Source of the DNA: a virus | Strand: one strand, 5' to 3' | IMG/VR virus record: IMGVR_UViG_3300017963_003053 | Coordinates: 1-23,820 of that record | DNA length: 23,820 nt | Shown: piece by piece, positions 5,733 through 22,738 of the stretch | Numbering within the stretch: position 1 is the stretch's first letter | Layout of the letters: each line of letters starts with the position of its first letter | Made by a program: the position numbers and the translations under genes | The notes under the pieces: model-generated | Seen by the model: the letters and a program-made list of their open reading frames with translations, nothing else | Database searches by the model: none | What the model was told of the DNA's origin: nothing

Positions 5733-5750
5733 TACGAAGGTGTGCTTTCT

Positions 5751-7540: not shown

Positions 7541-7544
7541 CGAA

Positions 7545-7571: not shown

Positions 7572-7591
7572 TACTAAAAAGGGAAGCACGG

Positions 7592-7810
7592 ATGTTATAT
7601 CAGTTGCATCATCAACATCGTAATGGTCTAACTGATTTTCTTGCTCAGACAAAGATTGCTGATGTTCTTCCTTGTACTGCACAACGAAAGATTTTAACAG
7701 AATGGGTCCTGCGAATGCAGATCAGGCATCCTTTACCCGCTAATTGTTCGTGGTTGCTATGCAAACAATCTGATCCTCAATTCATGGTTTGTTCTAGGAA
7801 GGAAAACTAG
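7592..7810 (+). CDS. Small hypothetical protein
   Basis: 72 residues with AAGGGAAG upstream of ATG 7592. The stop lies 3 bases before the next gene. It has four cysteines, no clear zinc-site spacing and no recognised domain. The frame fills the gap between the exonuclease and the Sak4-like gene exactly, which supports it, but the composition is unremarkable. Confidence 0.55.
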   Translation: MLYQLHHQHRNGLTDFLAQTKIADVLPCTAQRKILTEWVLRMQIRHPLPANCSWLLCKQSDPQFMVCSRKEN

Positions 7811-7813
7811 GTT

Positions 7814-8677: not shown

Positions 8678-8713
8678 CTATTTTTTGTATCTTGTTTCTC
8701 AAGGAGAACACTT

Positions 8714-9766
8714 ATGGCTAAGCGTAAAAAAAGCAGTTTGTTCAGTGTGGTAGGTAAGGCTGGAGTAAAAGCCTTTAACACACACAAAGAAGATGCTACT
8801 ACGGTTGCTGGGGGTGATCTGCCTCCAGGTATTGAGAATGGTATTGCCCGTTTAACGGAGTGTAAATTTGACACGTTCAAAAAGGGAGACTTCCAGGGAG
8901 AATACTACTTTATTGCTTCTGGCGTAGTGCTGTCTCCTGAAGCGGTGGATGGAATCCCTGTAAAAGGATTGCACACCCGGATTGGACCTGAGCCTATCTG
9001 TGACACCCCTGATCGCAGTCGTGAGTCTCTTGACGAACACCTAGCTTGGGTACTGAACCAACTACGATTGCTAGGATGTGAGACAAAAGACCTTGACTTT
9101 GAAGACCTTGAAGAAACTGTGTCTGTCTTAAAAGAGGCAGCACCAACTTTCCGTTTCCGAACGTGGAAAGGAGAACCCACTAAGGCTTGGCCCAACCCGC
9201 GTGTTAACAACCAGTGGAACGGTATTGTTGATTGGGACGATGCCACTGATCCTGATTCGGAAGTTGAAGAAGTTGAAGAAGATGAAGAAGATGAATCCCT
9301 TGCAGAATTGGGAGAAGCTGCCGATGGAGGAGATTCTGATGCCGAGACAAGTCTGACTAAAAAAGCTGAAGAAGCAGGAATAGACCCTGACGAATACACC
9401 ACGTGGACTAGTCTTGCGTCTGCTATTGAGCTTGCATCTGAAGAAGAGGACGAAGAAGAGGACGAAGAAGAGGAAGAGGAAGAGGAAGAGGAGGAGGAGG
9501 AAGACACCGATGAAGAAGATGAGGATGAGGATGAGGATGAAGAAGAAGAAGAAGAAGAGGAAGAAGACGATGATGATGAAGATGCTGAAGAAGAACCACC
9601 GGAGAAAGGTGACGTGTATTACTTCAAGCCTCCCAAAGCAAGGAAGAAAATTGAAGTGACAGTGACTGCTGTGTTTGCAGGAAAGGAAACCTGCAACGTG
9701 AAGTCATTGGATGATGGAAAGGTCTACAAGAAGGTAGCCTGGGATAAGCTTAGCACGGAAGAGTAA
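8714..9766 (+). CDS. Probable ssDNA-binding protein with very long acidic tract
   Basis: 350 residues, AAGGAG upstream. Residues 40-175 form a compact beta-rich domain (ARLTECKFDTF, GEYYFIASGVVL, FRFRTWKGE, WNGIVDWD) like phage ssDNA-binding proteins encoded beside Sak4. Residues 215-240 contain a small helical motif (AEEAGIDPDEYTTWTSLASA). Residues 243-294 are 50 Asp/Glu out of 52 (exceptions Thr264, Ala291). The last 50 residues look like an SH3/KOW-type barrel (GDVYYFKPP, KIEVTVTAVFAG, VAWDKL). Acidic tails of SSB proteins recruit partners and self-regulate DNA binding, but here the acidic stretch is internal. Assignment as the SSB partner rests on position and domain look, not on a named motif. 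Confidence 0.6.
   Translation: MAKRKKSSLFSVVGKAGVKAFNTHKEDATTVAGGDLPPGIENGIARLTECKFDTFKKGDFQGEYYFIASGVVLSPEAVDGIPVKGLHTRIGPEPICDTPDRSRESLDEHLAWVLNQLRLLGCETKDLDFEDLEETVSVLKEAAPTFRFRTWKGEPTKAWPNPRVNNQWNGIVDWDDATDPDSEVEEVEEDEEDESLAELGEAADGGDSDAETSLTKKAEEAGIDPDEYTTWTSLASAIELASEEEDEEEDEEEEEEEEEEEEEDTDEEDEDEDEDEEEEEEEEEDDDDEDAEEEPPEKGDVYYFKPPKARKKIEVTVTAVFAGKETCNVKSLDDGKVYKKVAWDKLSTEE
9440..9595 (+). repeat. Purine-rich GAA/GAG/GAT/GAC codon tract
   Basis: 156 bases of almost pure GAN codons coding the acidic segment of the preceding gene. It is nearly all purine on the plus strand, prone to replication slippage and able in principle to form triplex DNA. Length variation between relatives is likely. 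Confidence 0.8.
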
Positions 9767-10200: not shown

Positions 10201-10794
10201 ATGTCTTTACCAAGAAAGATAAGTAGAGCGTTGCGCAAGCAATCTAAACTATCGCTGCGTCCTGAAATTCTGTTAACTCCAAACATTCCTCGTCCAATGC
10301 ATGGAGTAAACCCCCGCACAATTATGGGTACTAGTTGGTGGAACCAGGAAAGACGGAAAGCATACAAAGCTTCATCGTATCGTTGTTTAGCTTGTGGAGT
10401 CTCTAAGTTTGATGCTTTATACCGGAAGTGGCTAGAGGCTCATGAGCTCTACAGTGTTGACTATCAAAAAGGCAGACTTGTCTACCTTGAAACAGTAGCT
10501 CTTTGCTACGCTTGTCATAACTACATTCATGATGGCAGACTACAAGCGTTGTTAGACACCCAGGAAATTACACACGAGAAGTACGTAAAAATCATACAGC
10601 ACGGGAACCGTGTATTGCAGCAAGCTGGGTTGTCTAGACCCCCTCGACACGTTAGGGAGGCAGACATTAGTGATATGTTGTTGAACGGGCTTGTCGCTCC
10701 GTGGAAAGATTGGAGACTAGTGTTCAAGGGTAAGTTGTATCCACCACGGTTCAAAACAGAAAAACAATGGCAAAAAGCGATGAGGAAAAGATGA
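10201..10794 (+). CDS. HNH-like zinc-binding protein
   Basis: 197 residues, starting directly after the previous stop, with AGGGAAAA upstream. The centre shows CLAC (62-65), LEAHELYSVDY with His81, and LCYACHNYIHDGR with Cys102, Cys105, His106 and His110. The order of zinc cysteines, HE and CHxxIH is that of HNH/treble-clef endonucleases. The conserved-looking NPRTIMGTSWWNQERRKAY segment precedes it. It may nick DNA or act as a recombination nuclease; phage copies may also be domesticated. Its stop overlaps the polymerase start (ATGA), so the two are co-translated. Catalysis is not shown by the sequence. Confidence 0.62.
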   Translation: MSLPRKISRALRKQSKLSLRPEILLTPNIPRPMHGVNPRTIMGTSWWNQERRKAYKASSYRCLACGVSKFDALYRKWLEAHELYSVDYQKGRLVYLETVALCYACHNYIHDGRLQALLDTQEITHEKYVKIIQHGNRVLQQAGLSRPPRHVREADISDMLLNGLVAPWKDWRLVFKGKLYPPRFKTEKQWQKAMRKR

Positions 10795-12824
10795 GAATTG
10801 CGCTTGACACTGAGACCACTGGATTGGATTTGTACCATGGAGACAAACCATTCATGGTGCAGGTTTGTTTTGAAGACGGCAACCAACTGTGGTGGGAGTG
10901 GGATGTTGACCCTCTTACTAGAGAGCCCAAAGTCATAGAAGAGGAACTAAACGAGATACAAAGCACGTTGGATTCTGCTGATGAAATCGTTTTGCAGAAT
11001 CCTAAGTTTGATTACTGCGCTTTGCGTACTGTGATGCCAAATTTGCGGTGGGATTGGGGTAAGGTAAAGGACACTCTGCTAGCAGGGCACTTGTTGGCTA
11101 GCAACGAGAGGCATGATCTCACTACTATGGCTTTGATCTATCTTGGAGTGGATGTTCAAAGCTATGAAGACAACGTGCGTAAGGCTGTACTAGCAGTTCG
11201 ACGGTTCTGCATGGGACGGAATCCTAAGTATCCCGATTGGATGATAGCAAGAGGCGGCAATCCAAAGATGCCAAGCGCAAAAGAAAGTAGCTGGAAAAAC
11301 GATATGTGGCTGCCCCGTGCTTACGCTCTAGAGAATAACCTGCCGAAGGGCCATGAGTATTGGAGCGTCACGGAAAAGTACGGCAATAACGACACAGAGA
11401 CTACGCTTGCACTCTATGGGCGACAACTCAAGTTGCTTAGAGAAAAACGGCTAGTGCGTCTTTACCAAGAGAGGTTGAAGCTACCTGGTATTGTAGCAGC
11501 CATGGAGGATCAAGGTGTTACCTTCAGTCAAAAACGGGTAAAGCAGCGACACAAACAATACCGGAAAGAGTCTGTTGACTACGGTAAGGTATGCAAGACC
11601 TTAGCAAGCAAAAAAGGGATAGAACTAACCTTACCAAAGTCAGGAAACAACAAATCATTACTATTGGCAGTTGAAGCTTTACTGCCTGCTAAAGTGAATC
11701 TCCCTTTGACAAAAAAGGGCAATCCGTCTTTGTCGGCCGACACGATTGAAGAATTGTTGAGTACTCTAACAGAAACTAGTCCTGCTTCTAAGTTTTTAAC
11801 GGCTCTAGTAGAGAAGCGCAAAAGGGATACTGCGGTGAGCTACTTAGAAGGGTACCAAAAATACCAACTACCATTACGGGTATTCAAGCGGGGCAAACGA
11901 TTGAGATATGTTAATTGGTATGTACTACATCCCTCTTTGAATCCAACTGGGTCTCATACGTTGAGATGGAGCAGCAAACACCCTAATGAGCAAAATATCA
12001 GCAAAAAGGATGGCTTTAATCTCCGGTATTGCTTTGGACCTGCTCCAGGCCGTGAATGGTGGTCTATTGATGCTAAGAATCTAGAGTTGCGAATCCCAGC
12101 CTATGTTGCCCAAGAAACAGAACAAATCAATCTGTTTGAAAAGCCCGATGAACCCCCTTACTACGGCAGTAACCACCTACTAGTGTTTGATATCCTTTGG
12201 ACAGAAAAGCTAGGATTAGACACATCTGATCCAAAGTACCTACTGAAGGCCAAAAGTAAGTACAAGGCAACACACTACCAGTGGACAAAGAATGGTAATT
12301 TTGCCGTGCAGTATGGTGCAGTAGAAGAGAGCGGTACAGCTGACCGTACTTACCACCAGAAGGGAGCACAGGCAAAAATTCAAAGACGGTTTGCTAAGTC
12401 ACGTGTCCTAAATGAAAAGATGATTGCAGTCGCTGAACAGCGTGGCTATGTAGAAACGTTGCCTGATAAAACAGTTGATCCGACAAGGGGATACCCTTTG
12501 TGGTGTAAGCGCACTAAGTGGGGACGAATAATGCCTACTACTCCGTTGAACTATATGGTGCAAGGTACTGCGATGTGGTGGATGATGAAGGCTATGATTC
12601 GAGTGCAAGAATACCTAGATACTCTCAAAGGCTCCTACATGATTATGCAGGTACACGATGAGCTAGTCTTTGACTTTCCAAAAGCCAAGAAAAGAAACCT
12701 TCCGAAGATACGGAAGATAGCACAGTTAATGGAGCAAGGGGGAGAGGATATTGGGGTTCCTACTCCTGTAAGTATTGAGTACCATCCCGTGTCTTGGGAT
12801 ACGGGTGTTTCTGTCGTAACATAG
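10791..12824 (+). CDS. polA: Family A DNA polymerase with 3'-5' exonuclease
   Basis: 677 residues from ATG 10791: GAGGAAAAG stands just before it and it overlaps the upstream TGA as ATGA, so I prefer it to ATG 10767. Proofreading domain: DTETTGLD (Asp6, Glu8), NPKFDY (Asp74), YGNNDTE (Asp201). Polymerase domain: HTLRWSSKHPNEQNIS (389-404), motif A SIDAKNLELR (Asp427, Glu432; T7-like DAxxLELR), motif B KNGNFAVQYG (Lys500, Phe504, Tyr508), PLNYMVQGTA (585-594), motif C QVHDELVF (620-627). No 5'-3' exonuclease domain. This is the likely replicative enzyme. The position of the conserved O-helix arginine (R754 of E. coli Pol I) appears to be Tyr496. Phe504 occupies the E. coli F762 site. Confidence 0.95.
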   Translation: MRIALDTETTGLDLYHGDKPFMVQVCFEDGNQLWWEWDVDPLTREPKVIEEELNEIQSTLDSADEIVLQNPKFDYCALRTVMPNLRWDWGKVKDTLLAGHLLASNERHDLTTMALIYLGVDVQSYEDNVRKAVLAVRRFCMGRNPKYPDWMIARGGNPKMPSAKESSWKNDMWLPRAYALENNLPKGHEYWSVTEKYGNNDTETTLALYGRQLKLLREKRLVRLYQERLKLPGIVAAMEDQGVTFSQKRVKQRHKQYRKESVDYGKVCKTLASKKGIELTLPKSGNNKSLLLAVEALLPAKVNLPLTKKGNPSLSADTIEELLSTLTETSPASKFLTALVEKRKRDTAVSYLEGYQKYQLPLRVFKRGKRLRYVNWYVLHPSLNPTGSHTLRWSSKHPNEQNISKKDGFNLRYCFGPAPGREWWSIDAKNLELRIPAYVAQETEQINLFEKPDEPPYYGSNHLLVFDILWTEKLGLDTSDPKYLLKAKSKYKATHYQWTKNGNFAVQYGAVEESGTADRTYHQKGAQAKIQRRFAKSRVLNEKMIAVAEQRGYVETLPDKTVDPTRGYPLWCKRTKWGRIMPTTPLNYMVQGTAMWWMMKAMIRVQEYLDTLKGSYMIMQVHDELVFDFPKAKKRNLPKIRKIAQLMEQGGEDIGVPTPVSIEYHPVSWDTGVSVVT

Positions 12825-12862
12825 AGAAACCGCTATAAAGCGTGACAGGTTAGGAGTGAGTG

Positions 12863-13441
12863 ATGGCAACTAGAGACAAGTATGGTAATCTTACCGATGA
12901 AGTGTGTACAAAGAGGTTTAAGAAATGGATTGAGCATTTCAAGCCAGGTAGCTCAAAAAGAAAATATCCGCCCGGTAAAACACATGACTGGGTGTACTAC
13001 AGCCACCATGTTCTCCTTCAGATACTAGCTGCCTTGGCAGACGAGCAAGACCTAGTAGAGATTGATCGGGGTCTTCATGGTGGCACAAGACCGTCTTTCA
13101 AGTTGTCTTGGAACAGTAAAGTGTCAACTCTTATTCCTGTCTGGGCAGAAAAGATGAGGAAGGACCACCCGAATAATGGGCTTTGGGAAATGGCACAAAG
13201 AGACTATGACTTCTTCACGCAAAAGTTTCGCTGTTTTGTCTTGTTAGCTTATGGGCAGAGAGGGGAAACATTGGAGAGTAGGGTATCTGTGGTGGAAGGG
13301 TCTAATGGGCTTACTACAGACTATCTTAGGATTGCTCCGTTGGAATCCTGCCTTGTTGCTGCTCAATCCTCTCATGGTACTATCTGCTTTGAAGAGATTC
13401 CTCAGCCAACCTTTGATTTATACAAGAAACTCCTATTATGA
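12863..13441 (+). CDS. Hypothetical protein, possible winged-helix segment
   Basis: 192 residues from ATG 12863 with TTAGGAG eight bases upstream. Residues 45-85 (YYSHHVLLQILAALADEQDL, then a GG-R-hydrophobic hairpin) are compatible with a winged helix. The rest has a beta-rich C-terminal half and no known motif. It is flanked by the true polymerase 3' end on the left and a diverged copy of that 3' end on the right (13452-13514), so it may have arrived by recombination together with a replacement polymerase tail. Function unknown. Confidence 0.65.
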   Translation: MATRDKYGNLTDEVCTKRFKKWIEHFKPGSSKRKYPPGKTHDWVYYSHHVLLQILAALADEQDLVEIDRGLHGGTRPSFKLSWNSKVSTLIPVWAEKMRKDHPNNGLWEMAQRDYDFFTQKFRCFVLLAYGQRGETLESRVSVVEGSNGLTTDYLRIAPLESCLVAAQSSHGTICFEEIPQPTFDLYKKLLL

Positions 13442-13451
13442 CTCCGACTGA

Positions 13452-13514
13452 GAGATTCCTGTAAGTATTGAGTATCACCCCTCTAATTGGTCAGAGGGAA
13501 TTTCAGTTTCTTAG
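13452..13514 (+). pseudogene. Remnant of a DNA polymerase C-terminus
   Basis: The frame ending at TAG 13512-13514 reads EIPVSIEYHPSNWSEGISVS; the active polymerase ends TPVSIEYHPVSWDTGVSVVT. At DNA level TCCTGTAAGTATTGAGTA is identical in both (18 bases), then they diverge with synonymous and conservative changes. An in-frame TGA stands just before it and there is no start codon, so it is not a gene. It marks a past duplication or allele exchange at the polymerase 3' end. Confidence 0.8.
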
Positions 13515-13530
13515 CTTTGGGAGAATTACT

Positions 13531-14025
13531 ATGGATCGTAACAGGTTAGGATTCAAAGAGAGACACAATTTAGCCAATTGGCTAAAAGCTCATTGGGAGA
13601 TGATTGTAGAAAAAAGGTTGGTGCGAGAAGTAGTAGCAGCCCGTGCATCTGAGGATTTAGGAGTAAACTGTACAGAAAATAATTTATCCAGTGTGGTAAA
13701 GGAAATGGAAATGGAATGGCCTAAAGCAGCTACCAGAAAACGGACCACTGGACAAACCAAAGACCGTTACAAGTTTGTAGCAAGACAATTGTATATTACC
13801 CAAAAATACTTGTTGGCCCTTCTTTGTTATCTAAAGGATTATTTAGAGGAAGAAACACTGCATCAAGATATTCTGACAAAAGTTAAGCTTTTTGTACCTG
13901 TTGCAGATGAAAAAGGAAGACTATTGAACTCCGAAGCCTTAAAAGCTATAGCTAATGGGCGAGATTGGCATGCCTCTGACTTTACACAGGAAGTTGAAGA
14001 AGATGAAGAAGATGACTCCAATTGA
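13531..14025 (+). CDS. Putative DNA-binding protein, helix-turn-helix N-terminus
   Basis: 164 residues from ATG 13531 with TTGGGAG upstream; the longer frame runs into the polymerase remnant and is rejected. Residues 1-65 read like a phage HTH/winged-helix unit (LANWLKAHWEMIVEKRLVRE, then ASEDLGVNCTENNLSSVVKE). A Lys/Arg-rich linker and a helical middle follow, and the tail is acidic (EVEEDEEDDSN). It overlaps the aGPT-Pplase-like gene by 14 bases. A regulator of the island is possible; no target is visible. Confidence 0.6.
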   Translation: MDRNRLGFKERHNLANWLKAHWEMIVEKRLVREVVAARASEDLGVNCTENNLSSVVKEMEMEWPKAATRKRTTGQTKDRYKFVARQLYITQKYLLALLCYLKDYLEEETLHQDILTKVKLFVPVADEKGRLLNSEALKAIANGRDWHASDFTQEVEEDEEDDSN

Positions 14026-14878
14026 TAGGTTTCTCTGGTGGATTAGAGAGCGACATAGCATCTACCTGAAAAAGGAAGCTGAAGAACCGAAGCCTTGGAC
14101 AAAGGACAAGGTGCTACAACGCTACTTTTTCACCAATCCATACCGAGAAAATGACAAGGTCACAGTTTGGATACGAAAACACATCCGACTACCTTATGCT
14201 AAGCATCCTTGTCTGCCTTTTATGCTCTGCGTTGCTAGGCAGTTTAACTGGCCTGACACCCTACAAGAGTTGATAGATCGGAATGCTTGGCCTACTAAAC
14301 GTTGGCGACCAACGTTAGTTGCTAAGGTACTAGATCAACGAAAGAAAAGAGGTTTGAAGGTTTATACAGGGGCTTATATGGTTCGGGCAGAGAGCAATCG
14401 AAATGCTGCTTGGTATCATTGGAGTAAAAACCTTTACATGGCTACAATTGTTCTTGGAAGAGTCTGGGACAAACGAGCCGAATTTGCAAAATGGTTACAG
14501 ACAAATAGTATGGAAGTATCGACCCGGTGGTTGCAAGCACAGTATGGGTGGGGAGGATTTATGGCTTATGAGGTAGTATGCGATCTAAGACACACTAAGT
14601 ACCTTAGAAAAGCACATGATGTAATGACTTGGGCCAACTTAGGTCCTGGTGCCCGCAGGGGTCTCAATCGAATCCATGGCAGAGAAGTGAAGCAGGGCCT
14701 GTCCCAAAAGCAGGGCTGTAAAGAAATGAGAGCACTACTGAGCGAAGCTCAATCTAGGTTGGGTGATCTTCCTTTAATGGAGATGAGAGAAATTGAACAT
14801 AGTCTCTGTGAGTTTGACAAGTATGAAAGAGCAAGGTTAGGGGTAGGTAAAATGAAGAGAATGTACGCGGGCAAATGA
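14012..14878 (+). CDS. aGPT-Pplase / 5-hmdU-DNA-kinase helical-domain family protein
   Basis: 288 residues from ATG 14012 with GAAGAAG upstream. Conserved blocks of the alpha-glutamyl/putrescinyl-thymine pyrophosphorylase and HMUDK-helical superfamily are visible: FLWWIRERHSIYLKK (7-21), PWTKDKVLQRYFFTNPYREND (28-48), VYTGAY (117-122), GGFMAYEVVCDL (181-192), WANLGPGARRGLNR (207-220), LCEFDKYE (265-272). Known members act on 5-hydroxymethyluracil in phage DNA: they phosphorylate it (when fused to a P-loop kinase) or displace the pyrophosphate with an amine. This copy has no P-loop domain. Together with the hydroxymethylase at 21617 it is the strongest sign of thymine hypermodification. The exact reaction is not predictable. 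Confidence 0.8.
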   Translation: MTPIDRFLWWIRERHSIYLKKEAEEPKPWTKDKVLQRYFFTNPYRENDKVTVWIRKHIRLPYAKHPCLPFMLCVARQFNWPDTLQELIDRNAWPTKRWRPTLVAKVLDQRKKRGLKVYTGAYMVRAESNRNAAWYHWSKNLYMATIVLGRVWDKRAEFAKWLQTNSMEVSTRWLQAQYGWGGFMAYEVVCDLRHTKYLRKAHDVMTWANLGPGARRGLNRIHGREVKQGLSQKQGCKEMRALLSEAQSRLGDLPLMEMREIEHSLCEFDKYERARLGVGKMKRMYAGK

Positions 14879-14911
14879 CTCTTTGCAGTTAATGTGTTAA
14901 GAGGCTAAGAC

Positions 14912-15760
14912 ATGAAACTGTTCATTTATGTACCAACACGGGGAAGAATCCTAGATCAAAAGTCTATGCGGTTTTTGCGATTAAAAGAATGTAAAGACCG
15001 TGTGGCATTTGTAGTTCCACAGTGTGAAGCCTTAGCATTCAAACGAAAGTACTCTTGGGCTAAAGTCAAAGTTGTGAAAGATGAATGGAAGATTGGAACA
15101 ATCAGTCAGTACATTATTGAAAGTAAAGGTCGGTACAAGGTTTTGATTGACGATGACTTTCAATTGCTTCGAAGACGGAACAAACTTAGTGTGTCTCAAA
15201 AAGGGGGGGTAGCTACTGATAAAGACGTTAGACTGCTGTTTGCTCGGGTAAAGTACTGGTTAAGAAAAGGTTTTGCTCACGGTGGGGTAAGTCTACGACA
15301 AACAAACCACTTTTGCAAGGATGCTTGGTACAAATTTAATAGTCGAGTGTCTGGGTTTATGTTTTTTGACTCACGGGTTGTGCGCCAAGAGGGAATAAGA
15401 TTTGATGCCGTACAAGAGAGACAAGACTTTCACATGACACTATCGTTGCTAGAATTGGGTTACTCTAATGTAGTTGATTATGAGTTTGCAGTCGGTCAGT
15501 ACATTCAGGGGACAAATGCTGCGGGCGGTTGCTCCCGATACCGAACACCAGTGTTTTTGTTGGAACAAGCAGAACGGTTAGCACAGCTGCACCCAAAGAC
15601 GGTTAGAGTTGTTTTCAAGCAACCGAAAGTAGCTGAAGCTACAAAGTCTATGTTGACGGACAAAGGCATACCCGATGTAAGGATACAATGGGTGAAATCG
15701 CTGGGGCTTCGTTCAGCAGAAAGAAAAGTAACAAAACCTTACCGCTGTGTGAGAGTGTGA
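14912..15760 (+). CDS. TAGT-like glycosyltransferase (copy 1)
   Basis: 282 residues. GT-A-like fold signs: KLFIYVPTRGR at the N-terminus, VAFVVPQCEA, and the metal-binding IDDDFQL with Asp80-82. The C-terminal half carries ERQDFHMTLSLLELGYSN, then AAGGCSRYRT and DVRIQWVKSLG, as in TET-associated glycosyltransferases of phages. That family transfers sugars to hydroxymethylated pyrimidines in DNA. A second copy lies at 18378-19169, sharing the start, DDD motif, GGC-YRT block and DVRxQWxKS block. No TET-type hydroxylase is in the window; the hydroxymethylase at 21617 would supply the hydroxyl instead. Sugar and acceptor unknown. Its stop overlaps the deacetylase start (TGATG). Confidence 0.75.
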   Translation: MKLFIYVPTRGRILDQKSMRFLRLKECKDRVAFVVPQCEALAFKRKYSWAKVKVVKDEWKIGTISQYIIESKGRYKVLIDDDFQLLRRRNKLSVSQKGGVATDKDVRLLFARVKYWLRKGFAHGGVSLRQTNHFCKDAWYKFNSRVSGFMFFDSRVVRQEGIRFDAVQERQDFHMTLSLLELGYSNVVDYEFAVGQYIQGTNAAGGCSRYRTPVFLLEQAERLAQLHPKTVRVVFKQPKVAEATKSMLTDKGIPDVRIQWVKSLGLRSAERKVTKPYRCVRV

Positions 15761-16302
15761 TGTATTGGTTGATTGAACCTCATGCTGATGATGTGTTTCT
15801 TTCTTTACACCAGCACATAGTTGACCTTTGGAAAGATGTTTCAAAAACTATTGTAACTGTATTTGCTACACAACAAAGAGTTAAAGAAGCACGGGAATAC
15901 GCTTTGGCAGTTAAATGTCGACACTTCTGTCTAGGATTAGAAGAAGGGGGTGGCTTATCTCAAAAAGCAGGCTTTGTGCCTCCATTTGACGAGTGGAAGT
16001 TGCCTAGAAAAAGAGGGGATGTCCTCATCTTTCCTATTGGAATACAACACCCAGACCATTTAGCAGTTGCGAAACGTGTGCCTACAATCGGAGTAGTTTG
16101 GCGGTATTTGGATACTCCTTACTACACAAAACAAAAGGTAGCCCAAGAGTTGATAGAAAAAACTCGGGGGCGTTGTATTCGATCAATAAGGTATGCCACT
16201 AGGCATAAATGGAAGCACGTTGAAAAGTTCAAAAGTCAAGGCAAGTTTTTCTTTTACAATCCTCCCAACACTTTACCTCGGATGGAGGTAGTCATGTCAT
16301 GA
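15760..16302 (+). CDS. PIG-L/LmbE-family deacetylase
   Basis: 180 residues from ATG 15760, sharing one base with the upstream stop. The N-terminal EPHADD (His8, Asp10, Asp11) matches the zinc-binding PHPDDE signature with Pro-to-Ala and Glu-to-Val changes. IQHPDHLAVA matches the second HPDH motif. This family removes acetyl groups from N-acetyl sugars (GlcNAc-PI, mycothiol precursors, BshB). At about 180 residues it is short. Coupled to a glycosyltransferase, it probably deacetylates the transferred sugar or its nucleotide donor, leaving a free amine; that role is inferred. Confidence 0.78.
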   Translation: MYWLIEPHADDVFLSLHQHIVDLWKDVSKTIVTVFATQQRVKEAREYALAVKCRHFCLGLEEGGGLSQKAGFVPPFDEWKLPRKRGDVLIFPIGIQHPDHLAVAKRVPTIGVVWRYLDTPYYTKQKVAQELIEKTRGRCIRSIRYATRHKWKHVEKFKSQGKFFFYNPPNTLPRMEVVMS

Positions 16303-16502
16303 ACCACAAAAGAGATGCTATTCCCGCTTGGAAGTACAAGGTAGGAAAACAAACAGCATACAATCGTTGGTTTGAAGGAAAAGGTGCCCCCCTACAAAGT
16401 GACATATTTCAGAGGACACATGAGAGCAACCCAGTTATTAGTAGAAAGGCAATAACGTGTTGTATAAACAGCATTCTCCGTTTTCAGTACAAGTTGAGTT
16501 AG
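16299..16502 (+). CDS. Small hypothetical protein
   Basis: 67 residues. ATG 16299 overlaps the deacetylase TGA (ATGA) and GGAGG stands about ten bases upstream. The last 46 bases overlap the radical SAM gene. The peptide is basic (pattern AWKYKVGKQTAYNRWFEGKG) with no recognised domain. The start context is good, but the long overlap leaves doubt. Confidence 0.5.
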   Translation: MNHKRDAIPAWKYKVGKQTAYNRWFEGKGAPLQSDIFQRTHESNPVISRKAITCCINSILRFQYKLS

Positions 16503-17413
16503 TAGAGGGGTGTTCCCTGGCTTGCTCTTTTTGCGGAATCAATGGGATCAGAAAAGGTCCTGGAAACTTCAAGTATGCTCGGTTAGGAATGCTAAGTAGG
16601 GTGGCAGCAGAAATAGCAAGACTAAAATGGACGCCTCGCATTGAATTTGCTATGCATGGAGAACCAAGCTTGCATCCTAAACTGCTTCATTGTGTGCGTG
16701 TCTTTCGCAGAAGATTGCCTCATCTATCTTTGATGCTAACAAGTAATGGTGCAGGCTTTCGAGGGAAACAGGTAGAAAGGATAGTAGCATTACAAAGGGC
16801 GGGTCTAAACGTTCTTGGCCTAGATAACTATGACCATGATGGTTCCGTTCCAGGCATTGTTAGAATGCTGCACAAAAAACACCCTAGTGTGCCTGTCCGG
16901 TATTACCCTGAAGACAAAGCAGCATCAGTATATCGAAAAAGAAAACCAGACTCGTTTGAAGTAGTCGTTTTGGCTGACATAAGAAAGCATGCTACCGGCA
17001 CTCGTAAACTCGCGAATCATGCTGGACAAGCATTTCCACCGGACACAAGTAAGCAAAATCAAAGGTGTGCGCTCCCATTTCGGGACTTAGCAATCCGTTG
17101 GGATGGTAATGTTGCTATCTGTTGTGACGATTTTAGAGGAACGTACAAAATAGCTAACGTGAAAGACATGCCGCTGGACGCTTTGTGGCAGCACCCTAGG
17201 TTTGTCGCTGCACGTAAGGCACTGTATCATCGACTCAGAGACTTCCTGCCTTGTGCGATCTGTAATGCTACCAGCATCCGCCCTGGTCTTTTGCCTGACC
17301 CTACTGGACAGGAGTCACTGCCTTTTCCATCGAGCAGGGATAACCAAGCCATGAAAGATGCTGTTGCAAACGGTCCTTATACAAAACCCGTTAAACGTCC
17401 TTGGGAGATGTAA
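16457..17413 (+). CDS. Radical SAM protein with SPASM-like C-terminus (copy 1)
   Basis: 318 residues from GTG 16457; an in-frame stop at 16442 excludes an earlier start, and AAAGG lies upstream. The radical SAM cluster motif CSLACSFC gives Cys19, Cys23 and Cys26. EFAMHGEPSLHP matches the GGEP-type motif. The C-terminal region (RCALPFRDLAIRWDGNVAIC, CC-D, then PCAIC and GLLPDPTG) has the cysteine layout of SPASM/twitch domains that bind extra Fe-S clusters. Chemistry could be C-C, C-N or C-S bond formation, epimerisation or dehydrogenation. It sits between glycosyltransferases and a deacetylase, so a nucleobase- or sugar-linked substrate is likely. It shares architecture with the next gene. 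Confidence 0.85.
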   Translation: MLYKQHSPFSVQVELVEGCSLACSFCGINGIRKGPGNFKYARLGMLSRVAAEIARLKWTPRIEFAMHGEPSLHPKLLHCVRVFRRRLPHLSLMLTSNGAGFRGKQVERIVALQRAGLNVLGLDNYDHDGSVPGIVRMLHKKHPSVPVRYYPEDKAASVYRKRKPDSFEVVVLADIRKHATGTRKLANHAGQAFPPDTSKQNQRCALPFRDLAIRWDGNVAICCDDFRGTYKIANVKDMPLDALWQHPRFVAARKALYHRLRDFLPCAICNATSIRPGLLPDPTGQESLPFPSSRDNQAMKDAVANGPYTKPVKRPWEM

Positions 17414-18376
17414 ATGTTCAAATTCCGTAAAGACAAACAACATGCTCCTTTCAACATTACTGTGGATGTCACTTCGGGGTGCTCTATTCGTTGCTCTTTC
17501 TGTGGTGTAAAGGGTGTTTACAGTAAAGCAGGGGTGTATGATCACATGAGCTTGAAGACGGGTAGACTTGTAGCACGCAAGTTAAATGAAGCAGGTTGGA
17601 TTTGCAGAATAACTATTGGATGTTTTGGAGAACCCACTGAAAACCCGCACTTGAAGGAGATTGTAAGAGCTATCCGAAAGGCTGCCCCTAAGCATTCAAT
17701 AATGATGTTGAGTAACGGGTCTGGTCTAGTAAAACACGCACAGAAAAAGTTTGAAGAATTGCATAACGCGGGATTGAATGCTATTTGTATTGAAGACTAT
17801 CGTAAGCAAGGGTTTCTTCAAAAGATACGAAAGCAAGGAGTGCAATTTGCGGGAAGATACCCAAACAACAAAAAGTTAAATCCGCAACAACGGTTCTCTG
17901 TCAATAAGCACTTAAACATTATCATCAACGATTTGAGGGACAACAGTGGTAGAGGGAGTAGTCATAGTCACATCAATAATCATTGCTGTTGCGGGGGTCC
18001 CCCTAATAATCGGGGCGTAGGTAAACGGTGCACTAGGCCTTTTCGTGATTTTGTTATTCGTTGGAATGGCTTTGTGCCCGGTTGCTGTAATGATTGGAGG
18101 ATGAAGTATGTGGTAGGTGACATTCGCAAACACACGTTTGAACAGTTGTGGCAGTCACAAGGATTTTATGCACTGCGTCAAAAAATGTATGCTGGTGAAC
18201 GAGATTTTGGTCCTTGTAATGGGTGCGATTTAATTGGCACAAGAGTGGGCTTGCTGCCTGATCCAACAGGCCAAATGGAGATGGAACCCCCCAATTCATT
18301 AACGGAACGTGTGCTTCAACAGTGCATGAGGCATCCTGATATGACGCCTGTAAATTTAAGAGCATGGGAACAGTAA
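17414..18376 (+). CDS. Radical SAM protein with SPASM-like C-terminus (copy 2)
   Basis: 320 residues, starting right after the previous stop, GGGAGATG upstream. The cluster motif CSIRCSFC gives Cys23, Cys27 and Cys30; GCFGEPTENP follows. The C-terminus (RCTRPFRDFVIRWNGFVPGC, CNDW, PCNGCD, GLLPDPTGQ) parallels copy 1, so the pair arose by duplication. Copy 2 alone carries an insert near residues 177-195 with HSHINNHCCC, an unusual His/Cys cluster that could bind an extra metal. The two may act in sequence or as a heterodimer. Substrate unknown. Confidence 0.85.
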   Translation: MFKFRKDKQHAPFNITVDVTSGCSIRCSFCGVKGVYSKAGVYDHMSLKTGRLVARKLNEAGWICRITIGCFGEPTENPHLKEIVRAIRKAAPKHSIMMLSNGSGLVKHAQKKFEELHNAGLNAICIEDYRKQGFLQKIRKQGVQFAGRYPNNKKLNPQQRFSVNKHLNIIINDLRDNSGRGSSHSHINNHCCCGGPPNNRGVGKRCTRPFRDFVIRWNGFVPGCCNDWRMKYVVGDIRKHTFEQLWQSQGFYALRQKMYAGERDFGPCNGCDLIGTRVGLLPDPTGQMEMEPPNSLTERVLQQCMRHPDMTPVNLRAWEQ

Positions 18377-18377
18377 A

Positions 18378-19169
18378 ATGCAAATCTTTATACCAACTAG
18401 GGGTAGGATTAACAACCAAGTAACTTTTGAACGGTTCCACTTGGCTAAAAGTCTATACCCAGTAACGTTTATTGTGCCTGAAGAGGAGTATCACGGGTTT
18501 GTGTCCAAGTGGGGTACTCAAGCAGAAATTAGGATAGTACCTAGTGAGTGGCACATTGGTAACATCCATGATTACATTGCTTCCTATTGGGGGGATAAAA
18601 AGCATGTGGTCATTGACGACGATTGCAAGTTGTATCATTGCCCGTCTAAAAAGTCATGCCTGATTGTTCGGCATGCAAGACAGGCACGTAATATGTTTTT
18701 ACAGTTAGAGAAGGCACTAGACACGTTCGCATACGCTGGGTTGACTCCTTCAGGTTACCACACGCTGAGCCCCTTTCCATCGTATGTCAACAGCCGCGTG
18801 TTGAACTTCCATGCTTATCGTCGCGACATCATCGTCAAAGAAGGGATCAAGTGGAGATTACCTACTAGTGGGGACCAGCATGCGGTTTTGACAACATTAG
18901 AACTTGGATACGCAGTACACCTAACAAATCGTTGGTGTGTCCAAGCTGCAAACTGGCAACCAGGCGGATGCACAGAGTATCGCACCGCAGAATTGGCGGA
19001 TCAATCCTTTCAAACGTTGGCCAAACTACACTCTAAAGTCAAATTACGCAAGTCTACTACGGCTACTGACCAACAAACACTTGACGTGCGCGTTCAATGG
19101 AAGAAGTCCTACGGAATACGTAAGTATGATCGTAAACTCAAACGACCAGGGGTGGAAGTATGCGACTGA
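18378..19169 (+). CDS. TAGT-like glycosyltransferase (copy 2)
   Basis: 263 residues, GGGAACA upstream. It parallels copy 1: MQIFIPTRGRINNQ start, VTFIVPEEEY, GNIHDYI, VVIDDDCKLYH with Asp80-82, DQHAVLTTLELGY, PGGCTEYRTAEL, and DVRVQWKKSYG. Two paralogues suggest two sugars, or a disaccharide added stepwise, or one enzyme for each of two acceptor positions. It lies downstream of the two radical SAM genes, overlapping the sulfotransferase-like gene by 10 bases. Confidence 0.75.
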   Translation: MQIFIPTRGRINNQVTFERFHLAKSLYPVTFIVPEEEYHGFVSKWGTQAEIRIVPSEWHIGNIHDYIASYWGDKKHVVIDDDCKLYHCPSKKSCLIVRHARQARNMFLQLEKALDTFAYAGLTPSGYHTLSPFPSYVNSRVLNFHAYRRDIIVKEGIKWRLPTSGDQHAVLTTLELGYAVHLTNRWCVQAANWQPGGCTEYRTAELADQSFQTLAKLHSKVKLRKSTTATDQQTLDVRVQWKKSYGIRKYDRKLKRPGVEVCD

Positions 19170-19762
19170 TACAAATCCAAGGATGTCGGCGGTCAGGAAA
19201 CCATGCTGTAATTGAATGGATTTTTAGTTATTACAAGGGGGGCTGTTTACACAACAACCTACCCCTGCCTTGGAATGGAAAGACTAGACCTAGCGAATAC
19301 TTAATGTACGGAGACTATGAGAGGTTTCCTGAGATAGAGATACAATCTTGGGAGGACAAGGTGCTGAAAGATGCTGTGATTGTGTTGAGGTCTGCTTACA
19401 ACTGTGTGGCTTCCCGTCTTAATGGTCCTAAGTATCTTCTGGAGTCAACAAGAAAGATTTGCAGATTTACACCCGTCTGGAAAGCGCATGCCAAAATGGT
19501 ATTAGCAGGCCACCCTCACATAGTCTATGATCACTGGCTAAACAATCCTAAACCAGCACATCAGCTACTACAGCTGCCAACCCCTTGCAAACGTCGCACT
19601 GCACGCAAACCAAGAAGAGGCAGTGGGTCTTCATTCAAACACAGTCCATCTAATTACTTTGAAAGGTGGAAGCAAGTCGATCTGCCTACAGAGATTGTAG
19701 AAGACAAAGAGATAGCAGAACTTAACAAGGAGATATTTGGATGGTGGATAGCATACAACTAG
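19160..19762 (+). CDS. Sulfotransferase-like P-loop protein
   Basis: 200 residues; the start lies 10 bases inside the previous gene with GTGGAAG upstream. The N-terminal QIQGCRRSGNHAVIEWIF has the G-x-R-R-S-G-N-H-A form of the PAPS-binding loop in sulfotransferase-fold proteins. VIVLRSAYNCVASRL matches the second conserved strand-helix (LRDPxxxxxS). A GSGSSF segment near residue 156 is typical of related small phage and cyanobacterial members. It has no GKS/T, so it is not a classical kinase. It may sulfate a sugar on DNA or on a surface glycan. Whether it uses PAPS is unknown; some members of the fold are non-catalytic. Confidence 0.65.
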   Translation: MRLIQIQGCRRSGNHAVIEWIFSYYKGGCLHNNLPLPWNGKTRPSEYLMYGDYERFPEIEIQSWEDKVLKDAVIVLRSAYNCVASRLNGPKYLLESTRKICRFTPVWKAHAKMVLAGHPHIVYDHWLNNPKPAHQLLQLPTPCKRRTARKPRRGSGSSFKHSPSNYFERWKQVDLPTEIVEDKEIAELNKEIFGWWIAYN

Positions 19763-20430
19763 TTGACCGTCAGGTCGTGATAGACCATCCTTGCAATGGT
19801 CCTCATAAGTGTAAAGAGGGGCTATGGTATGGGCACCACAAGGGAAAAAGCATTTGGAAAGATGGAAAGGTGTTTCTTTCTTTAGAAGACACTCCCTGTG
19901 TAGACCACGTTGCTTCCCCTCACTACATTGACGGTCTTTTGTTCTACCACGGAAGGGAGCCGGCTACAAGAAGGCAAATGACGTTTGTTTGGGATGGAGA
20001 AAGACATTATGGACCTGTTGCTCCTTTCTATTTGCGGCCGTGGAAAATACGCCATCTTTGGTATGGGTTGTGTAAGTACCATGGGTGCTCTTTGTTTAGT
20101 GCTTGGGATCCAACAAAAGAATGGACCTTTCTTCGTGTGGTTATTCCGAAAGTACGACACGGATTTTATTACAGAGGGTGGGTCTACTATACGTTGATTG
20201 GAGACGCTCCAGAAAGGGTATTCCGTGCCAGGTTAAAGAAGCCAAATAATACTGCACAAGAGGTACTTCGTCCTGTATATCCTTGGGAAGGTGCGGAAAT
20301 GCCGCTCAAACCGAGTAAGAGCGGAGCAGTGACTCACCTAGTCAATCAGTTGCGCGACCCAATGGTGTATCAGGGAACGTTGTATTATGTTTACGGAGGG
20401 GAACAGGGCATTGCTCGTGTTGAGTTATAG
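19741..20430 (+). CDS. Possible beta-propeller/glycosidase-like protein
   Basis: 229 residues. ATG 19741 is inside the previous gene and is preceded by AAGGAG, a near-perfect site. The protein has repeated short beta-strands rich in Trp, Tyr and Gly (GKSIWKDGKVFLSL, SPHYIDGLLFYHG, HGFYYRGWVYYTL, DPMVYQGTLYYVYGG), as in GH43-like or exo-alpha-sialidase-like propellers. No catalytic triad could be assigned. It may recognise or trim the glycan made by the upstream transferases. Last gene of the plus-strand run. Confidence 0.55.
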   Translation: MVDSIQLVDRQVVIDHPCNGPHKCKEGLWYGHHKGKSIWKDGKVFLSLEDTPCVDHVASPHYIDGLLFYHGREPATRRQMTFVWDGERHYGPVAPFYLRPWKIRHLWYGLCKYHGCSLFSAWDPTKEWTFLRVVIPKVRHGFYYRGWVYYTLIGDAPERVFRARLKKPNNTAQEVLRPVYPWEGAEMPLKPSKSGAVTHLVNQLRDPMVYQGTLYYVYGGEQGIARVEL

Positions 20431-20437
20431 GTGTAGA

Positions 20438-20471
20438 AAAAGCCTCCAGCGGTTTTTCGCAAGAGGCTTTT
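20438..20471. terminator. Bidirectional terminator between convergent genes
   Basis: AAAAGCCTC (20438-20446) and GAGGCTTTT (20463-20471) form a 9-bp stem with an A-run on one side and a T-run on the other. It lies between the plus-strand gene ending at 20430 and the minus-strand gene ending at 20489, so it can stop both transcripts. Confidence 0.85.
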
Positions 20472-20488
20472 AGAAGAGAAGCACACGA

Positions 20489-20893
20489 TTAACAAAGCTT
20501 GGAACCTTCCTTTGTCAGATGGTAACCCTTGCCCTCTTGCAGTTTAACCCAGTCGATTAAACCGTTGGTGCGAAGAGTGGCGCAGTCGTCTACAGCTTTG
20601 TCTTTACCGCCAAACTTGTCCCAGACTGCTTCCCGTTGTATTACAGTCGTCGGGCGAGTGGCGTGCCTCTTTTTGAGGAACCTAAGAATGTTGAGTCTTG
20701 TCGGAGTCAAACGAATACTAGAACCAGAAGGAGTTTCTACCAATTCACCTTGGCTCTTGTTAGTTCTCTTGTCCGCCTTTCCTTTTTTACCCTTGACTGT
20801 CTTTTTGACAGTCTTTTTGACGACCTTCTTCTTAGCTGCCTTTTTGGGAGTTGCCTTCTTGTTGCTCTTCGTTGTCTTTTGTGCCTTTACCAT
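20489..20893 (-). CDS. Histone H1-like protein with winged-helix C-terminus
   Basis: 134 residues from ATG 20893, with AAAGGAG upstream; the ATG at 20932 has no better site. Residues 1-48 are Lys/Ala/Thr-rich with KKAAKK and KKTVKK repeats, as in bacterial H1-like and AlgP-type tails. Residues 60-134 look like a winged helix (LTPTRLNILRFLKKRHATR, then TLRTNGLIDWVKLQEGKGYH). It would bind DNA without much specificity through the tail and with more through the winged helix. It is transcribed alone against the direction of its neighbours, from a promoter of the shared TTTACT type. It may coat phage DNA or act as a global regulator. Confidence 0.72.
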   Translation of the reverse strand: MVKAQKTTKSNKKATPKKAAKKKVVKKTVKKTVKGKKGKADKRTNKSQGELVETPSGSSIRLTPTRLNILRFLKKRHATRPTTVIQREAVWDKFGGKDKAVDDCATLRTNGLIDWVKLQEGKGYHLTKEGSKLC

Positions 20894-20952
20894 TTTGACG
20901 CTCCTTTGAAAGAAAGAAAATGTTAGAACCAAACAGTAGGTTCACTACTACT

Positions 20953-20981
20953 ACTATACGGGTTTGACGTGCAAAAGTAAA
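20953..20981 (-). promoter_or_regulatory. Promoter TTTACT-N17-TATAGT of the histone-like gene
   Basis: Minus-strand TTTACT (20981-20976), spacer 17, TATAGT (20958-20953). An ACTACTACTACTA run overlaps and follows the -10, and a GGGTTT/AAACCC dyad (20960-20965, 20979-20984) overlaps the -35. The same TACTAC motif is near the promoters at 4444-4559. Confidence 0.68.
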
Positions 20982-21040
20982 CCCATTCTGGGAAGAAAAA
21001 GCAAAAATAGTTCTAAATCATTGCTACAAAAGGAGTTACA

Positions 21041-21592
21041 GTGTCTATAAACACGATTTTCCTGGATATGGACGACGTTTTGGCTGACTTTATTCGGGGT
21101 GCTTTGGAGATTCACGGGATTACCCGTGAAGAATTCATTGCTCAGCATGATGGTAGTTGGTCAATCGTTTCGACTCTTGGATTATCAGAAGAGGAGTTTT
21201 GGCTGCCGATCATTGAAGCGGGTCAAAGCTTCTGGCAGGAATTGAAGTTGACAAAACATGCGACAGAGTTGATGCAATGGGTGACAGACCAAAAGTTGGA
21301 TTACTACATTTTAACTTCTCCTGTCTCTACCCCTCAATGCTATGCTGGAAAGTACCTGTGGCTTCAAGAGTTTTTGGGTCCGGCTTTTAACTGTTACGTG
21401 CCTACCGTGCATAAGCATCTGTTAGCAAAACCTGGAACGTTGTTAATAGACGATAGCCCGTCTATATGCAGAACGTTTAGAGACGGAGGAGGATTCGCTA
21501 TTCAATATCCGACAAGGTATAATAGTCTTTCTTGGTTCTCCTGCCAACCTGTCAAGTTTGTTTCCCATATTGTTGACAGTTATACTGAGTAG
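21041..21592 (+). CDS. HAD-family 5'(3')-deoxyribonucleotidase
   Basis: 183 residues from GTG 21041 with AAAGGAG seven bases upstream. The N-terminal IFLDMDDVLADF carries the nucleophile Asp9 and acid/base Asp11 and is the NT5C-type signature; YYILTSP is motif II and TLLIDDSPSICRTF is motif IV. The family dephosphorylates dTMP, dUMP and other deoxynucleotides. Next to a hydroxymethylase-type thymidylate synthase homologue, the sensible role is to lower dTMP so that the modified nucleotide is used for phage DNA, as in phages with hydroxymethyluracil. Specificity is not visible. Confidence 0.85.
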   Translation: MSINTIFLDMDDVLADFIRGALEIHGITREEFIAQHDGSWSIVSTLGLSEEEFWLPIIEAGQSFWQELKLTKHATELMQWVTDQKLDYYILTSPVSTPQCYAGKYLWLQEFLGPAFNCYVPTVHKHLLAKPGTLLIDDSPSICRTFRDGGGFAIQYPTRYNSLSWFSCQPVKFVSHIVDSYTE

Positions 21593-21616
21593 GTCTAAAA
21601 CAAAAGGAGTAGTGTT

Positions 21617-22738
21617 ATGCAAACGCAATGGTCTTTTAACTCGGTTGATGAGGCATTTGAAAATATGGTGAAGGTCTTTTTGACGTCAGAACAGGTACAA
21701 CAGACAAACAGTAGAAACGGACCAGTACTAAGACTGCCTGGCCCGCAACTGTTTGTGTATAAGCAACCCTGTAATCGTGTCTTGTTTAATCCTGCAAGAG
21801 ACTGTAACCCGTTTTTTCATCTGTTTGAGTCTCTTTGGATGCTCGCAGGGTGTAACCGTGTAAAACCTCTATCATATTACAATTCTAACATCACAGACTA
21901 CAGTGACGATGGAGAAACTTTTCATGGAGCTTATGGCTATCGTTGGCGTAGTCATTTTGGTGTAGACCAATTGAAACAGATCGAAGAAGAACTCTTACTA
22001 GATCGTGAGAGCCGTCGATGTGTTTTGCAAATTTGGTCCTCTACTGCTGATTTAGGAATCCATATGATTACAAAAGACAAGCCTTGTAACACGCATGCTT
22101 ATTTTGCCCTTGTAAACGACCATCTGGATCTGACTGTCTGTAACCGCAGCAACGACTTGGTTTGGGGAATGCTCGGTGCAAATTTTGTGCACATGACTTT
22201 GCTATTAGAATACATGGCCTGCTGTTTGAATGTGCCAATAGGACGGTACTTCCACATTACAAACAACTTGCACGTTTATCTCAGCAATTGGAGGCCATCA
22301 GACTGGACAAACTGGAAACAGCATCGAACGCAGTATTCTCCTCCTATTCTTAATCACCCAATGGGACATGGTCCTCGCTTAGTTAGTGACCAGACTGTAT
22401 TTGACGCAGAGTGTAAACGGTTTGTTGATTCGATTGACGGGACCTTCCAAGAGCCATTTCTACAAAACGTTGCCCAACCGATGATGGCAGCGTTTAGGGC
22501 ACATAAGCAAAGAAAGTATTTTGGTGACCTGAACTGCTTTACCCTTATTGACCGGGTGCATGCCCCTGACTGGAGAGAGGCAGGTCGGCAGTGGCTTATG
22601 CGAAGAAAAGAGAATTGGATGGCTAAAAACAAAAAAGGTAAAGGGAAAACCACTAACGTTTACCTTGCAAGGGAAGAGAAGAGACAGGCGGCGAATCCAG
22701 ACGATTCTCAGTACAATGGTAGTGGAGATTCTGACTAA
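21617..22738 (+). CDS. Thymidylate-synthase-family pyrimidine hydroxymethylase
   Basis: 373 residues, AAAGGAG upstream. Synthase-fold motifs: Glu71 in HLFESLWMLAG, FHGAYGYRWR (102-111), DRESRRCVLQIW (129-140), catalytic Cys157 in KPCNTH, and RSNDLVWGMLGANFVHMTLLLEYMA (177-201). The last block, RSND-W-G-GAN-VH, is that of dUMP/dCMP hydroxymethylases rather than the PFNIA block of true thymidylate synthases. The reaction would add a hydroxymethyl group to C5 of dUMP (or dCMP) using methylene-THF. Asn189 near the substrate site favours uracil if it matches E. coli Asn177, but a one-residue offset leaves that open. A Lys/Gln-rich tail of about 40 residues is extra. Confidence 0.82.
   Translation: MQTQWSFNSVDEAFENMVKVFLTSEQVQQTNSRNGPVLRLPGPQLFVYKQPCNRVLFNPARDCNPFFHLFESLWMLAGCNRVKPLSYYNSNITDYSDDGETFHGAYGYRWRSHFGVDQLKQIEEELLLDRESRRCVLQIWSSTADLGIHMITKDKPCNTHAYFALVNDHLDLTVCNRSNDLVWGMLGANFVHMTLLLEYMACCLNVPIGRYFHITNNLHVYLSNWRPSDWTNWKQHRTQYSPPILNHPMGHGPRLVSDQTVFDAECKRFVDSIDGTFQEPFLQNVAQPMMAAFRAHKQRKYFGDLNCFTLIDRVHAPDWREAGRQWLMRRKENWMAKNKKGKGKTTNVYLAREEKRQAANPDDSQYNGSGDSD

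Follow-up and report, generated by a model that had tools for sequence, protein, structure and literature searches.

The window analysed here is the whole of a 23,820-base fragment from an uncultivated virus (IMG/VR record IMGVR_UViG_3300017963_003053), in which a run of co-oriented genes on the + strand follows directly after a family A DNA polymerase gene (PolA) and occupies positions 12860-22738. This cassette probably builds a glycosylated thymine in the virus DNA and bypasses the phosphorylated intermediate that phages M6 and PaMx11 use; most likely, a processed and possibly sulfated amino-sugar, or two of them, would be attached at thymine positions of the virus's own DNA. A preliminary description of this DNA had named an aGPT-PPlase1 protein (aGPT1), two TAGT glycosyltransferases, a PIG-L deacetylase, two radical S-adenosylmethionine (SAM) enzymes (rSAM1 and rSAM2), a deoxynucleotidase, and a hydroxymethylase, the last being assigned here to the thymidylate synthase (TS) family. 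All of these genes were found on the + strand where they had been placed. The principal genes are listed below with window coordinates, strand, and E-values of family matches.

14012..14878, +, aGPT1 / HMUDK_hel (aGPT-PPlase1); PF18723 2.9e-51
14912..15760, +, TAGT1 glycosyltransferase; PF20691 4.1e-5, phrog_842 4.2e-22
15760..16302, +, PIG-L/LmbE-type N-deacetylase (predicted); PHADD and HPDH zinc motifs, translationally coupled to TAGT1
16457..17413, +, rSAM1, BtrN-like twitch radical SAM enzyme; PF04055, PF13186 (SPASM)
17414..18376, +, rSAM2, divergent rSAM1 paralogue; PF04055 7.3e-11, PF13186 7.1e-12
18378..19169, +, TAGT2 glycosyltransferase; PF20691 2.9e-9, phrog_842 2e-24
19160..19762, +, sulfotransferase-like protein; 5'-PSB-like and 3'-PB-like motifs, conserved context
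21041..21592, +, 5'(3')-deoxyribonucleotidase; phrog_2643 1e-17, PF06941 1.4e-4 (under cut-off)
21617..22738, +, TS-family pyrimidine hydroxymethylase, predicted dUMP-specific; PF00303 1e-18, phrog_5131 5e-100

The cassette genes partly overlap or abut, and the stop-start junction of TAGT1 and PIG-L reads TGATG.

Kinase and glycosyltransferase genes at aGPT1 loci

Virus loci were collected by a scan anchored on aGPT1 alone, which removed selection bias, and independent loci flanked by 4 kb or more on each side were retained. The 42 loci obtained in this way carried TAGT in 18 cases, the kinase 5-HMUDK in 15 (14 of them with the amino-acid:DNA transferase AADT), both TAGT and kinase in none, and neither in nine, and the mutual exclusion of TAGT and kinase was significant (Fisher p = 1.4e-5). 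This value replaces an earlier estimate (p=0.008) that was biased because its loci had been chosen mostly via the radical SAM gene. Since 15 kinase loci were recovered from the same collection with the same method, the kinase is detectable there, which argues that TAGT replaces it. A survey of records gave PF18723 in 28 of 30, TS in 28 of 30, and TAGT in 24 of 31, with TAGT never found together with the kinase.

A kinase profile and an AADT query were run over the window, its relatives, and cultured phages, and both genes were detected in M6, PaMx11 and, distantly, Acinetobacter phage SH-Ab 15599. The M6 genes are ordered aGPT2/AADT, pyridoxal phosphate (PLP) enzyme, radical SAM, P-loop kinase, aGPT1, TS, and polymerase; a P-loop kinase is likewise located just upstream of aGPT1 in PaMx11, a Rhizobium phage, and SN1. 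Neither the 5-HMUDK kinase nor aGPT2/AADT was found in the window, itself a fragment, where the kinase profile matched only 18 residues of a P-loop, in an unrelated ATPase. Because the window is incomplete (23.8 kb), gene absences were judged via relatives. Searches of 24 whole environmental records gave neither kinase nor AADT, and the same result was obtained for Brevibacterium phage LuckyBarnes, whose genome is complete. For AADT the negative covers 26 environmental records.

In the classical route, a 5-hydroxymethyldeoxyuridine (5hmdU) kinase and AADT would attach an amino acid via a pyrophosphate intermediate. It is improbable that these two enzymes are encoded elsewhere in this genome and that TAGT, PIG-L, and the sulfotransferase decorate the resulting adduct. 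The idea draws on the fragmentary state of the window and on the 47% identity of its aGPT1 to gp55 of M6, a phage that uses this route; however, the kinase place upstream of aGPT1 holds unrelated genes here, the 24 whole relatives have neither enzyme, and kinase and TAGT occur together in 0 of the 42 loci. The preliminary description had combined kinase/aGPT-PPlase chemistry with glycosylation, a combination that is not supported, since kinase and AADT are missing here and in all TAGT-carrying relatives. To judge from gene content, glycosylation takes the place of the kinase and amino-acid-transfer chemistry.

The window aGPT1 matched PF18723 along its full length (residues 23-294) at 174.9 bits against a cut-off of 25, and its AlphaFold2 model was all-helical with a predicted local distance difference test (pLDDT) score of 94. 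The best matches of this fold in the PDB were HhH-GPD DNA glycosylases, which were not significant (E 0.18 or worse, TM 0.3-0.4). Because aGPT1 accompanies the kinase at some loci and TAGT at others, and is present even where both are absent, it is likelier to be a recognition factor for 5-hydroxymethyluracil (5hmU) in DNA than the pyrophosphorylase of its name, and it may act in recognition and base flipping on behalf of the writer enzyme of each locus. In one locus (L008:9174-11661) and likewise in two others (L009, L012), a methyltransferase gene (PF13489 7.5e-10) was located directly upstream of aGPT1 and TS, with no kinase or glycosyltransferase nearby; these loci possibly represent a third branch.

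The association of the genes is beyond chance because it recurs in dozens of independent loci. The cassette is not a one-off but an elaborate representative of a widespread branch defined by aGPT1, a glycosyltransferase, and TS.

Glycosyltransferases and the predicted modified base

TAGT2 exceeded the PF20691 cut-off of 27.5 bits (37.6 bits), and TAGT1 fell just under it (24 bits). The DDD metal motif (D80-D82) was invariant across 18 sequences, the two window copies among them, and TAGT2 is approximately 24% identical to a TAGT of LuckyBarnes. Both enzymes are predicted to glycosylate a hydroxymethyl-pyrimidine in DNA. A pairing of TAGT1 with TAGT2 was not resolvable in the tree, where branches were long.

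In a PDB search the window TS-family enzyme was nearest to a CMP 5-hydroxymethylase (4e-19, versus 3e-11 for TS). By alignment it is 39% identical to M6 gp58, 31% to SPO1 gp29, and 19% to T4 gp42, and it retains Asn189, as do SPO1 gp29 and M6 gp58; the T4 gp42 residue is Asp. The automatic alignment was shifted by one residue at this Asp, and we take the equivalence of Asn189 and T4 gp42 Asp179 from established knowledge of T4 gp42. Asn189 together with aGPT1 points to 5hmdU and hence to thymine positions, and the enzyme is predicted to be a dUMP hydroxymethylase. The deoxynucleotidase would suit the removal of dTMP.

There is a small chance that cytosine is modified instead, with the TS-family enzyme acting as a dCMP hydroxymethylase and TAGT glycosylating 5-hydroxymethylcytosine (5hmC) as in T-even phages. 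The closest PDB entry, a CMP hydroxymethylase, is in line with this, as is the TAGT family phrog_842, which takes in the T-even second glucosyltransferases acting on glucosyl-5hmC (PMC13390438). Against it stand Asn189, which is the residue of the SPO1 dUMP hydroxymethylase and not that of T4 gp42, the higher identity to SPO1 gp29 than to T4 gp42, and the pairing of aGPT1 with thymine modification in M6-like phages. Sequence alone cannot give TS function, and the enzyme might also be an ordinary thymidylate synthase in a partly decayed cassette with light or no DNA glycosylation. This is highly improbable, as every catalytic motif tested was intact and, in phages whose thymine hypermodification is proven, aGPT1 is linked to this very TS clade.

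Predicted sugar-tailoring enzymes

A scan with an alignment of the window radical SAM proteins yielded 128 virus loci, 80 of which were examined. These carried aGPT1 (68), TS (64), and TAGT (54), most commonly in the order aGPT1-TAGT-rSAM-TS. After dereplication, 41 independent loci flanked by 3 kb or more on each side remained, with TAGT in 30, aGPT1 in 34, TS in 33, and kinase and AADT in none. A TAGT or putative glycosyltransferase was located within 6 kb of the radical SAM gene in 41 of 41 loci, a count that is partly circular since the non-TAGT clusters in it (c61, c70, c54, c114, and c115) are weak calls picked near radical SAM genes; the firm TAGT-rSAM figure is 30 of 41. Among the matches listed for bacterial genomes there was no true member of the family, only generic ones at approximately 30% identity.

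The family profile matched BtrN in the PDB at 7e-22 (next best 1.6e-6). The three radical SAM cysteines (CxxxCxxC) and four auxiliary-cluster cysteines were invariant in 31 of 31 sequences, and rSAM1 and rSAM2 keep all of them. BtrN performs a two-electron oxidation of the amino-cyclitol 2-deoxy-scyllo-inosamine and has a four-Cys auxiliary cluster (PMC9012708). This enzyme of butirosin biosynthesis is the closest solved structure to rSAM1 and rSAM2 and shares their radical SAM plus four-Cys twitch layout, but its substrate is a small-molecule amino-cyclitol and its sequence similarity to them is remote. The window proteins are best read as putative sugar dehydrogenases or epimerases. They are 32% identical to each other; a recent tandem duplication was not supported, as the two were placed apart in a tree with weak support and a long rSAM2 branch.

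The PHxDD and HPxH zinc motifs of PIG-L were invariant in the window protein and three relatives. When relatives were compared with PF02585, those of L140 and L160 exceeded the cut-off and those of L106 and L148 did not (L numbers designate individual virus loci). The family profile matched the teicoplanin GlcNAc-pseudoaglycone deacetylase (2.6e-7), and the order GT4-like glycosyltransferase, PIG-L, aGPT1, TS was observed in L148 and L160. No tblastn match to PIG-L, rSAM2, or the sulfotransferase-like protein was obtained in cultured phages.

The sulfotransferase-like protein contains the motifs RRSGNHA (5'-PSB-like) and LRSAYNCVASR (3'-PB-like), and four relatives keep RRSG(N/G)HA and a stretch R-x-x-Y-N-x-x-x-S-R, as judged by eye. 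A single-sequence search found no close homologues, and the relatives were found by alignment only. They occur in three virus groups (L031, L104, and L115), always adjoining TAGT and/or a radical SAM gene. A structure model built from four sequences reached a pLDDT of 33, and the family profile had no relevant match in the PDB. The designation as sulfotransferase-like is based on these motifs and on the conserved context, and no family model or structure was matched.

The L115 operon is ordered TAGT, sulfotransferase-like gene, rSAM, APS kinase, the last of these being identified by PF01583 (1.7e-57) and by the NCBIfam adenylyl-sulfate kinase model (over cut-off). APS kinase produces PAPS, the sulfate donor. 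It was found neither in the L031 record nor among the window proteins scanned. Locus L140 contains a glycosyltransferase-like fragment, PIG-L (1.3e-6, over cut-off), aGPT1, an APS-kinase-like gene (2.7e-12), Sulfotransfer_3 (4.1e-5, just under cut-off), and TS, in this order. Taken together, L115 and L140 indicate that a deacetylase, PAPS supply, and a sulfotransferase meet repeatedly around aGPT1/TS or TAGT/rSAM, with sulfotransferases that are unrelated. Such recurrent groupings are the strongest support, of an indirect kind, for an amino-sugar or sulfated base. The tailoring genes of this island are best interpreted as making an amino-sugar and/or a sulfate, as first suggested.

Sulfotransferases, PIG-L, and GT4 enzymes are frequent in polysaccharide loci. 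The glycosyltransferases, deacetylase, radical SAM enzymes, and sulfotransferase could accordingly act on a surface glycan or another host or virion molecule, leaving only TS and aGPT1 concerned with DNA; the identity of the sulfotransferase-like protein is unproven, and one record (G022) has TAGT, sulfotransferase, rSAM, and APS kinase with no detectable TS or aGPT1. This alternative is nevertheless unlikely, as TAGT is a family of DNA-base glycosyltransferases, the genes are situated between PolA and TS with coupled overlaps, the radical SAM family is nearly confined to the cassette context, and PIG-L and a sulfotransferase stand beside aGPT1 again in the independent cassette of L140. An island that hypermodifies DNA at thymine positions, as originally proposed, remains the most likely interpretation.

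In its complete form, with thymine replaced by 5hmU bearing sulfated, deacetylated, and rSAM-oxidised amino-sugars in a kinase-independent branch, this interpretation is put forward tentatively. N-deacetylation followed by sulfation would be reminiscent of heparan sulfate maturation, and we are not aware of any description of a sulfated DNA base. Several points weigh against the proposed glycosylation route in general. Family searches with hidden Markov models (HMMs) bore out the proposed aGPT1, TAGT, radical SAM, deoxynucleotidase, and TS assignments, and gave no direct match for the window PIG-L or for the sulfotransferase-like protein (for the latter, Pfam, PHROGs, NCBIfam, and PDB searches). 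TS and hydroxymethylase are not separable with certainty from sequence, and the DNA-glycosylase-like fold match of the aGPT1 model, not being significant, is a hint only. aGPT1 was not detected in two records with TAGT and rSAM (G022 and G026) and is thus not strictly required, and the radical SAM family was present in one of the 42 aGPT1-anchored loci, which makes it a minority decoration. As the window is a fragment, a kinase could in principle be encoded elsewhere in the virus's own genome.

Proposed pathway, surrounding genes, and known systems

The following pathway is proposed. The analysis shows which genes are present, that their catalytic motifs are intact, that their linkage is conserved, and that TAGT and kinase exclude each other; the substrates, order of steps, and role of aGPT1 are predicted from the gene set. 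The TS-family enzyme would convert dUMP to 5-hydroxymethyl-dUMP, the deoxynucleotidase would clear competing dTMP, and 5hmdU would enter DNA via the neighbouring PolA, to be recognised and exposed there by aGPT1. TAGT1 and/or TAGT2 would then glycosylate the hydroxymethyl oxygen, or one of them would lengthen a first sugar. PIG-L would strip an N-acetyl group (GlcNAc-like to GlcN-like), the BtrN-like enzymes would oxidise or epimerise a hydroxyl carbon of the sugar, and the sulfotransferase-like protein would add sulfate from PAPS. The presumed role is to shield the DNA from host nucleases. It is plausible that two submodules, TAGT1-PIG-L-rSAM1 and rSAM2-TAGT2-sulfotransferase, make two differently tailored sugars or a disaccharide.

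The remaining features in and next to the cassette are as follows.

10767..12824, +, family A DNA polymerase (PolA); PF00476 1.8e-28
12860..13441, +, 193-aa protein between PolA and aGPT1; no Pfam/PHROG match
13468..14025, +, 185-aa protein; no significant family in Pfam/PHROG, weak relative in L027 (3e-4)
16299..16502, +, possible small open reading frame (ORF), 67 aa; ATGA overlap with the PIG-L stop
19741..20430, +, orphan 229-aa protein; no homologue in any family library or IMG/VR

PolA adjoins aGPT1 likewise in relatives such as L029, L031, L041, L067, and L080. The 67-aa ORF extends into rSAM1 and may be either a small operon gene or a chance reading frame. The suggestion that positions 19741-20430 encode a beta-propeller is neither supported nor excluded, as no homologue was found. 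A lysine-rich ORF on the minus strand (20489-20932) is present in the gap of the island, and a related ORF occupies the corresponding position in the L031/L118 virus; the match (L118:10749-11189, minus strand, 3e-6) indicates that it is probably a real gene. The window also encodes a UDG-superfamily protein (5742-6323, PF03167 1.5e-18), as do the relatives L029 and L030, and this protein may clear plain uracil left unconverted by the hydroxymethylase. A stretch of a 1123-aa DNA polymerase III alpha (DnaE-like) ORF (L115:10370-13738) matches the window UDG (7e-8), and this apparent polymerase-UDG fusion adjoins the TAGT-sulfotransferase-rSAM-APS kinase operon of L115.

Near relatives keep the polymerase-to-TS frame and vary in their tailoring genes, with the largest set among the loci compared being that of the window. 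L029 has two aGPT1 genes, TAGT, and rSAM; L031 has a glycosyltransferase, the sulfotransferase-like gene, TAGT, and rSAM; and L041 has TAGT, an FkbM methyltransferase, two glycosyltransferases, and rSAM. The aGPT1 genes of L029 form a tandem pair (7453-9215). The FkbM-type methyltransferase (L041:6234-6950) is encoded within an aGPT1-TAGT-rSAM-TS cassette and is likely a sugar O-methylation variant.

Phages M6 (5-NedU) and PaMx11 resemble the window in their homologous TS-family hydroxymethylase (39-41% identity), in aGPT1, and in the adjoining PolA. Unlike them, the window has no 5hmdU kinase, aGPT2/AADT, PLP enzyme, or flavin adenine dinucleotide (FAD) enzyme and carries glycosyltransferases instead, and its radical SAM enzymes are BtrN-like and not of the M6 gp53 type. 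Part of the gene set is already known from HTVC023P-type pelagiphages, for which a 2022 paper describes TS, aG/PT-PPlase1, a 5'-deoxynucleotidase, and a beta-glucosyl-HMC-alpha-glucosyltransferase near PolA and reports no radical SAM, PIG-L, or sulfotransferase (PMC9599517). The gp38-gp41 cluster of LuckyBarnes, which is cultured and has a complete genome free of the kinase, likewise comprises aGPT1, two TAGTs, and TS, with no PIG-L, radical SAM, or sulfotransferase annotated.

Base J, the beta-glucosyl-hydroxymethyluracil of kinetoplastids, also carries a sugar on the hydroxymethyl group of 5hmU in DNA. It arises in DNA from T through JBP1/2 and JGT (PMC6449724), whereas the 5hmU of the window is predicted to form at the nucleotide level and to be tailored further; according to the same 2019 paper, there had been no report of glucosylated 5hmdU in phages. 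Bacillus phage SP-15 contains dihydroxypentyluracil with glucose and phosphoglucuronate, that is, a uracil-derived base in the place of thymine bearing sugars and negative charge (PMC5977210). Its base and its genes (UDP-glucose dehydrogenase, teichoic-type) are different, and no cassette of aGPT1, TAGT, and rSAM has been described for it.

A literature search that did not reach the main primary papers returned no paper in which TS, aGPT1, deoxynucleotidase, and glycosyltransferase genes are combined with those for radical SAM enzymes or sulfotransferases. A 2022 Nucleic Acids Research study reportedly noted that thymidine-hypermodification genes occur in many permutations in viral metagenomes. 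If demonstrated, a DNA-borne amino-sugar that is both sulfated and oxidised would be novel.

To judge from the loci compared here, thymine hypermodification linked to aGPT1 falls into two branches that exclude each other: one has kinase and AADT and is biochemically known, and the other has a glycosyltransferase and is of similar frequency in the sampled virus collection. Glycosylated 5hmU is thus predicted in phages, and LuckyBarnes is a cultured phage of the glycosyltransferase branch. If the pathway proposed for the window is correct, its tailoring genes would equip DNA with amino-sugar chemistry in the style of antibiotics, and possibly with sulfate.

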